62,747 nt of DNA, taken from Modicisalibacter coralii. GTDB taxonomy: Bacteria; Pseudomonadota; Gammaproteobacteria; Pseudomonadales; Halomonadaceae. The notes under the pieces were generated by a model, which searched no databases, was not told where the DNA came from, and worked only from the letters and a program-made list of their open reading frames with translations. The DNA is taken from positions 1 through 62,747 of the forward strand of contig NZ_QWBW01000017.1 in NCBI RefSeq assembly GCF_004117855.1. Reading direction: 5' to 3'. A program made the translations under genes and the position numbers. Positions 55,192-56,599 of this stretch are shown piece by piece (position 1 is the first letter of the stretch; each line of letters opens with the position of its first letter).

Positions 55192-55448
55192 GGCCGGTCC
55201 CAGCATGGCATTCGGCGCGATCGGACGTTTTGGGCACATAGCCTTCAAGGATCGTCGGCAACGGCCGATAGGTCGATATGTCATTAACGTTTTCCCAGCG
55301 AACGACGTTTTCCAAGCCAATCTGGCAGCGTTGTCGTCGGTTCGGGCCGGACTTGCCCGAGCCATTTGGCGATCGACCAAGGCCGACCATGTCATGCGGG
55401 GAGCGGCGGACCGGGATGGACCGCCACCCCACCCGGACAAGTGAGCTG

Positions 55449-56378
55449 ATGCCCCTTCCAAGCCCTAGCATGCTGTTTCGTGTCCTCCCCGCGTTGTGTA
55501 CGCTCTTCCTGCTGGCCGCCTCGGCGCTCTGGCTGCTGGCCCGCGCCGACGATATGCCGTGGATTTCCGACGTGGTCACCGGCCATCGGCTGGCGTTCCT
55601 GACGCTTCTGCTGGCCGGCTTCGTCACGGCGATCTGGCTGGTGGTCCGCCAGCTGTTCACCCGACCGATCCACGAACTCGTGGACTACGTCAGGAGCCAG
55701 CACGAGGGGGTCCCCGAAGCCGCGCCCTCCCATCTGCTGAGCCGACACGACGATATCGCCTACCTGACCCGCGAGATCGAGCATCTGCTCGAGACCCTGC
55801 GCTCCAAGAACGAGCAACTGCTCGCCGAGACCCTCAACGACCCGCTCACCGGACTCGGCAACCGGCGACTGCTGGAGCAGCGTCTCGAGATCGCCCTGCC
55901 CCTCAGCCGACGTCGCATGACGCCGCTGTCGGCGCTGATGATCGATGTCGATCACTTCAAGCAGTACAACGACCATTACGGGCACCCGGCCGGCGACGAA
56001 TGCCTGAAGGAGATCGCCAACGTCCTGCGCGATATCTTCCGCCGCGAGACCGACATCGTGGTGCGTCTGGGCGGCGAGGAGTTCCTGGTGGTGCTGCTCG
56101 ACAACGAACTCGATGATGCCACCCGGCTGGCCGAAGCGATGCGCAGCATGCTTCAGGCGGTGGGCATTCCTCACGAGCACTCGCCGACCGCCGAGGTGGT
56201 CACCGTCAGCATCGGCGTCGCCACCGCCCCGCCGGGCACCCCGATCGATCTGGACAGTCTGCTGGCCTGTGCCGATTCCGCGCTCTACCGCTGCAAGGCA
56301 ACGGGCCGCAACTGCACGGTCAGTCACACCGTGGGGGTATCGCCGGTGCCCGTTGAGGCGTTACGCCAATCCTCGTGA
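55449..56378 (+). CDS. Membrane-bound diguanylate cyclase (GGDEF domain)
   Basis: 309 aa from the ATG at 55449; the longer frame upstream lacks homology. Two membrane helices (about 12-32 and 46-66) flank a very short periplasmic loop and lead into a HAMP-like/coiled linker (LTREIEHLLETLRSKNEQLLAET). The GGDEF domain starts with DPLTGLGNRRLL and has an active-site GGEEF near residue 210, so cyclic-di-GMP synthesis is likely. No EAL domain. A sensory domain is essentially absent, so signals may be sensed in the membrane. Confidence 0.91.
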   Translation: MPLPSPSMLFRVLPALCTLFLLAASALWLLARADDMPWISDVVTGHRLAFLTLLLAGFVTAIWLVVRQLFTRPIHELVDYVRSQHEGVPEAAPSHLLSRHDDIAYLTREIEHLLETLRSKNEQLLAETLNDPLTGLGNRRLLEQRLEIALPLSRRRMTPLSALMIDVDHFKQYNDHYGHPAGDECLKEIANVLRDIFRRETDIVVRLGGEEFLVVLLDNELDDATRLAEAMRSMLQAVGIPHEHSPTAEVVTVSIGVATAPPGTPIDLDSLLACADSALYRCKATGRNCTVSHTVGVSPVPVEALRQSS

Positions 56379-56425: not shown

Positions 56426-56461
56426 TTGGGCCGCGCCAGAATACTGTATATAATTACAGTA
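56426..56461 (+). promoter_or_regulatory. Sigma70 promoter overlapping a LexA (SOS) box, upstream of satD
   Basis: TTGGGC (56426-56431) and a perfect TATAAT (56449-56454) are spaced by 17 nt. Over the -10 lies TACTGTATATAATTACAGTA (56442-56461). It keeps the CTGT-N8-ACAG core and differs from the E. coli LexA consensus at only 2 of 20 positions, both central. The only downstream genes on this strand before a convergent gene are satD and the DUF3307 gene. SOS control is therefore strongly suggested. Confidence 0.75.
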
Positions 56462-56481
56462 ATCACAAGGATATCGATACC

Positions 56482-56572
56482 GCTATAGCGCTATATTTCC
56501 GATAAATAGCTCCATAGGGCTATTTCCCAATAGCCCTTATTGGCTATTTTTTCGGAAATGCGCGAATATAGC
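56482..56572 (+). repeat. 91-nt imperfect palindrome / structured leader before satD
   Basis: One long hairpin centred at 56526-56527. Arms from the loop outward: GGGCTATT (56517-56524) with AATAGCCC (56529-56536); AAATAGC (56504-56510) with GCTATTT (56543-56549); ATTTCCGA (56495-56502) with TCGGAAAT (56552-56559); GCTATA (56482-56487) with TATAGC (56567-56572). An alternative hairpin AATAGCC/GGCTATT (56529-56548) runs into a stretch of six Ts, like an intrinsic terminator. It lies between the promoter and satD, so it would be transcribed. Confidence 0.7.
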
Positions 56573-56599
56573 TATTGGTGGCAGCCACGGAGTCTTGTC

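Follow-up and report, generated by a model that had tools for sequence, protein, structure and literature searches.

A predicted LexA box and an array of palindromes upstream of a satD-like-DUF3307 gene pair in Modicisalibacter coralii and some of its Halomonadaceae relatives

The window analyzed here is a stretch of 62,747 nucleotides (nt) from the salt-loving Modicisalibacter coralii (family Halomonadaceae; contig NZ_QWBW01000017.1). The locus in question carries two genes, one for a SatD-like protein and, overlapping its stop codon, one for a DUF3307 membrane protein. These are preceded by a candidate box for the SOS repressor LexA, by a predicted promoter (P1) whose -10 hexamer lies within that box, and by an array of 18-base-pair (bp) palindromes that may be operators of the SatD-like protein itself (Table 1).

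Table 1. Features of the satD-like-DUF3307 locus, in window positions
Feature	Position	Strand	Basis or remark
TTGGGC, weak -35 of P1	56426..56431	+	3/6 letters of TTGACA; 17 nt before -10
LexA box TACTGTATATAATTACAGTA (candidate)	56442..56461	.	Sequence, genome pattern counts, family conservation
TATAAT, -10 of P1, within LexA box	56449..56454	+	Sequence
Degenerate 18-bp palindrome	56477..56494	.	9/12 half-site letters by eye, repeat search; 29 bp before next
Candidate SatD operator ATAGCT-CCATAG-GGCTAT	56506..56523	.	Repeat search, family consensus
Candidate SatD operator ATAGCC-CTTATT-GGCTAT	56530..56547	.	24 bp from previous
SatD-like protein, 213 amino acids	56600..57241	+	Class III cyclase/GGDEF-like domain (~residues 1-150) and C-terminal helix-turn-helix
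DUF3307 protein, 246 amino acids	57238..57978	+	ATG overlaps satD stop; PF11750

Analysis of the box showed that the only letters in which TACTGTATATAATTACAGTA departs from the Escherichia coli LexA consensus TACTGTATATATATACAGTA are those at positions 12 and 13, which bears out the two central mismatches given in the initial annotation. It is the sole site in the window with three or fewer mismatches to the consensus, and there were none in 100 shuffles (first-order resamplings rather than exact shuffles). In the whole genome (4,438,786 bases scanned; 99.99% complete), the satD box is also the sole occurrence of CTGTWWWWWWWWACAG, that is, CTGT-W8-ACAG, for which the reversed-pattern control gave 0. 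The looser pattern CTGT-N8-ACAG is uninformative alone because it occurs at 19 places compared to 25 in its reversed control, a result that would suit a chance match, as short motifs can turn up at random. When the sites were scored with a matrix built from 18 E. coli boxes, the satD box reached 28.2 bits, second of the 16 scored CTGT-N8-ACAG sites and level with a umuD box (28.5 bits); these bit scores are approximate, and the conclusion also rests on the plain matches. The box had further been said to cover a TATAAT with a TTGGGC 17 nt away. Both were located, and the TTGGGC turned out to be a weak -35 element.

The scored sites of this genome, 16 of the 19 since three had no locus and were left unscored, fell into eight of at least 21.6 bits and eight of 12.5 bits or less. 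The top eight comprised three umuD-type sites (28.5, 26.1, and 23.2 bits), satD (28.2), a PA0069-family radical SAM gene (24.2), recN (23.0), a site with no gene assigned (21.8), and recA (21.6). Because these high scorers include recA, recN, and umuD-type genes, the motif serves as a marker of SOS genes here. A lexA gene was found as well (228 bits). Some side observations were made in the same scan. The genome has three umuD-type genes (L004, L005, and L018), all of them preceded by a LexA-type box. The box of the PA0069-family gene lies at L014:1501-1516 (G000:C43:8505-8520), and PA0069 was not found in the open-licence PubMed Central literature; the unassigned site lies at L011:1501-1516 (G000:C30:26075-26090). 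A second protein, at L017 (G000:C15:2608-2973), scored above the NCBIfam lexA cut-off with 114.8 bits, over profile positions 79 to 202 only.

Conservation of the box was followed in two sets of relatives that share some species and are not independent samples. The named-species scan gave 28 relatives of the SatD-like protein, 19 from Halomonadaceae (L021 to L039) and nine from outside it (Pseudomonas, Glaciecola, and one metagenome-assembled genome of Pseudomonadales). Upstream matches of 15 to 19 of the 20 consensus letters were present in 18 of the 19 Halomonadaceae loci, with none in L038; the right half of the box was broken in L037 and L030. The family set held 275 Halomonadaceae genomes, 130 of them with a satD gene, of which 129 upstream regions were used (G096, with stops, was dropped). 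The initial annotation had proposed looking upstream of satD orthologues, with absence of the box from close relatives counting as a refutation, and there the box recurred: a LexA-like box of at least 17.3 bits preceded satD in 52 of the 129 loci, the best of 387 resampled sequences reaching 12.2 bits. By genus, boxes were found in 12 of 12 loci of g1 (the genus of the window, in which satD was not matched in 2 of 14 genomes), 10 of 10 of g5, 13 of 13 of g20, the single loci of g13, g18, and g21, 14 of 73 of g8, and 0 of 18 of g2, g3, g7, g12, and g16 combined. Across the 275 genomes, the exact 16-mer CTGTATATAATTACAG was found 20 times, 18 of them upstream of satD, and CTGTATATAAWTACAG 43 times, 20 of them upstream of satD. 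The two CTGTATATAATTACAG places unlinked to satD are G145:C13:78493 and G225:C1:2483268. The uniqueness of the A/T-only form in the genome and the presence of the box in every satD locus of the genus led us to reject a chance match, an explanation with next to no probability left; the box upstream of satD is real.

A second explanation is that the box is kept as a strong promoter, or as the site of some other regulator, and that LexA does not bind it. The same TATAAT is indeed present in 19 of the 22 g1 and g5 loci, and binding of LexA at the box is a prediction. However, the dyad ends mostly stay in g20 and g8 where the -10 letters vary, so that plain -10 conservation was judged unlikely, and the same motif stands at the recA, recN, and umuD-type genes of this genome. 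In g20 the center of the box is variable and its ends are kept, a pattern that fits a dyad-binding repressor; the information contents of the box positions come from the site with the best score and run somewhat high. We therefore regard a box without LexA as very improbable, and the SOS (LexA) reading of the satD-DUF3307 operon, as predicted from these comparisons, as well supported. The state of the box needs at least four changes on a quickly built tree of the 129 SatD rows, which drew long-branch warnings and on which gain and loss are indistinguishable.

Between the box and the gene, where the DNA falls to 37% G+C, lies a feature absent from the initial annotation, the array of 18-bp palindromes (56477-56576). 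AATAGC-N8-GCTATT occurs twice (56505-56524 and 56529-56548) with weaker copies around it, and the genome matches of ATAGC-N8-GCTAT are only at these two sites. In the family set, perfect 6-bp arms with a 6-bp gap numbered 128 in 129 loci compared to 8.6 in resampled sequence. When an array site was defined as ATAGCC-N6-GGCTAT with at least 10 of the 12 letters, 268 sites were found in 114 of the 129 loci, 100 of which had at least two; the controls gave 0.009 sites per locus in resampled sequence and one in total in 600 bp of satD coding sequence per locus. Of the 154 pairs of neighboring sites, 144 were spaced 29 bp apart. Other lineages have palindromes of other letters. ATCG...CGAT palindromes take their place in some Chromohalobacter loci, GTAACC-N6-GGTTAC, mostly 28 bp apart, is found in five Pseudomonas loci, and GCAATC-N6-GATTGC in one Glaciecola locus. 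Among seven plasmid loci read (of eight matches), a perfect array was present in that of Vibrio lentus only (TTAGCC-N6-GGCTAA three times, 28 bp apart), and four had no perfect 18-mer at all. By eye, the SatD helix and the operator letters co-vary, with few independent changes and with the helix motif missed in 31 of the 129 rows.

The palindromes lie within the leader that would be transcribed from P1, where they could form hairpins. This raises the alternative that LexA binds the box and that the palindromes act as RNA hairpins or bind an unlinked regulator, not SatD, an arrangement that the weakness of the second promoter (P2, below) in the window would also suit. We consider this alternative improbable. 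The regular 29-bp spacing argues against it, as does an 18-bp frame that is kept while its letters are lineage specific, beside a satD gene with a helix-turn-helix of its own. So does the sequence that surrounds the last palindrome in the 77 loci lacking a box; its consensus, TTGA.A-N16-TAT..T, resembles a sigma-70-type promoter. This P2, at the best array site, had at least 8 of 12 letters in 57 of the 59 box-less and all 14 box-bearing g8 loci, in 17 of the 18 box-less loci of g2, g3, g7, g12, and g16, and in 7 of the 12 g1 loci. In the window, the end of the second candidate operator overlaps a weak P2-like -10, TATTTT (56545-56550); P2 looks weak here, and the main promoter is probably P1.

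The first gene of the pair had been called satD in the initial annotation, a name that held less firmly than that of its neighbor. The window protein scored 11.6 bits against the SatD family PF16264, below the cut-off of 29, and for this reason it is called SatD-like here; PF16264 was matched at an expectation value (E) of ≤1 by 19 of the 26 aligned sequences, at best with 9.4e-6. A profile of the 26 sequences matched the mycobacterial adenylyl cyclase Ma1120 (E 1.2e-5, profile positions 19 to 102) and, at the C terminus, helix-turn-helix domains (best E 0.0015). In the AlphaFold2 model (mean predicted local distance difference test score, 91.8), residues 1 to 150 match class III cyclases and GGDEF domains about equally well. 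All 26 sequences have D10 and R46-G47-D48-G49-F50, and R68 and R85 are nearly invariant. No Asn is invariant or nearly invariant among the 26, and the alignment thus appears to lack the catalytic Asn/Arg pair of class III cyclases; the GG(D/E)EF signature is likewise replaced by RGDGF in all 26. Three Vibrionaceae plasmid copies read RGDEF. From these residues, the protein is more likely a nucleotide-binding sensor than an active cyclase, and because a cyclase/GGDEF-like fold with a helix-turn-helix stands beside a palindrome array, it is probably an autorepressor.

The name of the second gene stood firm, with 87 bits against PF11750 (cut-off, 23). Its product is predicted to be almost wholly helical (predicted template modeling score, 0.59), and the model had no fold match in the PDB at E ≤0.001. 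DUF3307 follows satD in 26 of the 28 loci of the named-species scan. L031 (Chromohalobacter nigrandesensis) has only a C-terminal DUF3307 remnant after satD, L036 has the match in two pieces about 1.4 kb apart, and L048 has no DUF3307 match after satD. Kinship to YdjM was rejected, as none of the nine Pfam families matched by 19 members at E ≤1 is named YdjM. On the other side of the locus, a GGDEF diguanylate cyclase gene (55278-56378) lies on the same strand just upstream of the box region.

We think it likely that satD-DUF3307 belongs to the LexA regulon in certain lineages and that, as a second layer, it controls itself, with P1 lying upstream of P2. From the computed box, conservation, array, fold, and gene pair we infer the following course of LexA binding, induction, SatD binding, ligand sensing, and promoter use. 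A LexA dimer on the box over the -10 of P1 would block RNA polymerase. Upon DNA damage, active RecA would lead to self-cleavage of LexA, as in the known LexA mechanism, and P1 would fire. The SatD-like protein, as a dimer or oligomer, would bind the 18-bp palindromes (arms and gap of 6 bp each), usually spaced at 29 bp. The -10 of P2 (TTGA.A-16-TAT..T) is spanned by one of the palindromes in most relatives, and SatD would repress its own transcription there. The SatD produced from P1 would then occupy the array and curb the burst, except when a ligand releases it, and the output of the operon would be the DUF3307 membrane protein. The LexA-controlled P1 may have been added or kept upstream of P2 in some lineages.

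Several findings weigh against this scheme. First, the box is absent from many satD loci: 77 of the 129 family loci have none (9.7 bits or less), nor do the nine non-family loci of the named-species scan (at best 12 of 20 letters), the seven plasmid loci (at best 10.4 bits), or 15 further non-family loci, where the best score was 12.4 bits in L202, which matched over profile positions 8 to 76 only and is probably not SatD, and the others reached 6.8 bits or less. Therefore, SOS control does not extend to the operon wherever it occurs, and outside Halomonadaceae, where no locus read had a LexA-like box, it was rejected. Second, the right half of the box is broken in some loci (G010, and the ACAT and ACAC forms in g8), and lexA itself is preceded only by degenerate LexA-like boxes (L016:1400-1500). 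Third, P1 has a weak -35 (3 of 6 letters), which fell below the threshold of a promoter scan that listed no site. The P2 of the window scores 7 of 12, so that SatD would need to act as a roadblock downstream of P1; moreover, the P2 control, in which 12% reached 8 of 12 letters, used a single random anchor compared to the best of several sites per locus, which somewhat flatters the contrast. Finally, the consensus defining the array sites was drawn from the same loci in which they were counted, all 10 g5 loci and part of the g20 loci (5 of 13) have no ATAGCC-type site, and the loose array pattern and its reversed control had two genome matches each, although the two of the pattern itself lie in the satD upstream region.

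Copies of the gene pair also occur on plasmids. Of the seven plasmid records read, six have DUF3307 annotated beside the satD-like gene (two Salinivibrio, Vibrio lentus, Pseudomonas fragi, Sphingomonas, and Segatella); the seventh, from Pseudoalteromonas, has no annotation at that place. On the Sphingomonas insulae plasmid (L211), the pair adjoins a Pycsar-effector-family gene and an E2-domain-associated gene. A phage family, phrog_2470, resembles DUF3307 (E 5.6e-15). A mobile stress or defense module is conceivable. In its fullest form, SatD-DUF3307 would be a mobile, self-limiting stress or antiphage module, wired to the SOS response in several Halomonadaceae, in which a nucleotide-sensing repressor frees a membrane effector; we regard this as a doubtful, speculative extension. 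Neither protein matches any PADLOC model at E ≤1, and a known defense system was rejected on this ground.

With satD-DUF3307, a conserved membrane operon without a repair function would be added to the predicted SOS response of Halomonadaceae. SatD-like proteins are suggested to be one-component regulators with a nucleotide-cyclase-type sensor, and the candidate operator would be the 18-bp palindrome with its 29-bp period. Since a candidate operator is given, the roles of SatD and DUF3307 are directly testable, and the family offers a natural comparison between lineages with and without the LexA switch. The initial annotation had held an SOS-regulated SatD/DUF3307 operon to be undescribed. In keeping with this, no such operon and no link of LexA to SatD or DUF3307 was found among the matches listed in the part of the open-licence PubMed Central literature that was seen. 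In that same part, no title among the matches listed had bacterial SatD as its topic ("satD" being mostly the start of satDNA or unrelated) or dealt with the Halomonadaceae SOS regulon, the terms "SatD family" or "satCDE" are in use, and DUF3307 is mentioned for jumbo phage only.

Compared to the LexA/SOS regulon of gammaproteobacteria (recA, recN, and umuDC), the satD operon has the same CTGT-N8-ACAG motif overlapping a promoter, but neither of its products is a known repair or division protein, and its box is limited to some Halomonadaceae lineages. E. coli ydjM is a LexA-controlled gene for a membrane protein, and both it and the operon described here, in which SOS control is predicted, concern a membrane protein of unclear role; however, no Pfam family matched by the DUF3307 members at E ≤1 is named YdjM. 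The resemblance to Streptococcus mutans SatD (PF16264) is weak and extends over the whole length, and the window protein falls below the curated cut-off. Class III cyclases and GGDEF proteins share the fold of residues 1 to 150, whereas the SatD-like protein has no invariant Asn, has RGDGF in place of GG(D/E)EF, and ends in a helix-turn-helix. A small cyclase-type protein with a membrane protein is found both in Pycsar and in the Panoptes antiphage system (PMC12657218), and one plasmid copy of the pair lies beside an annotated Pycsar effector. The pair differs from both systems in having no PADLOC match, and its helix-turn-helix and operator array point instead to a regulator.
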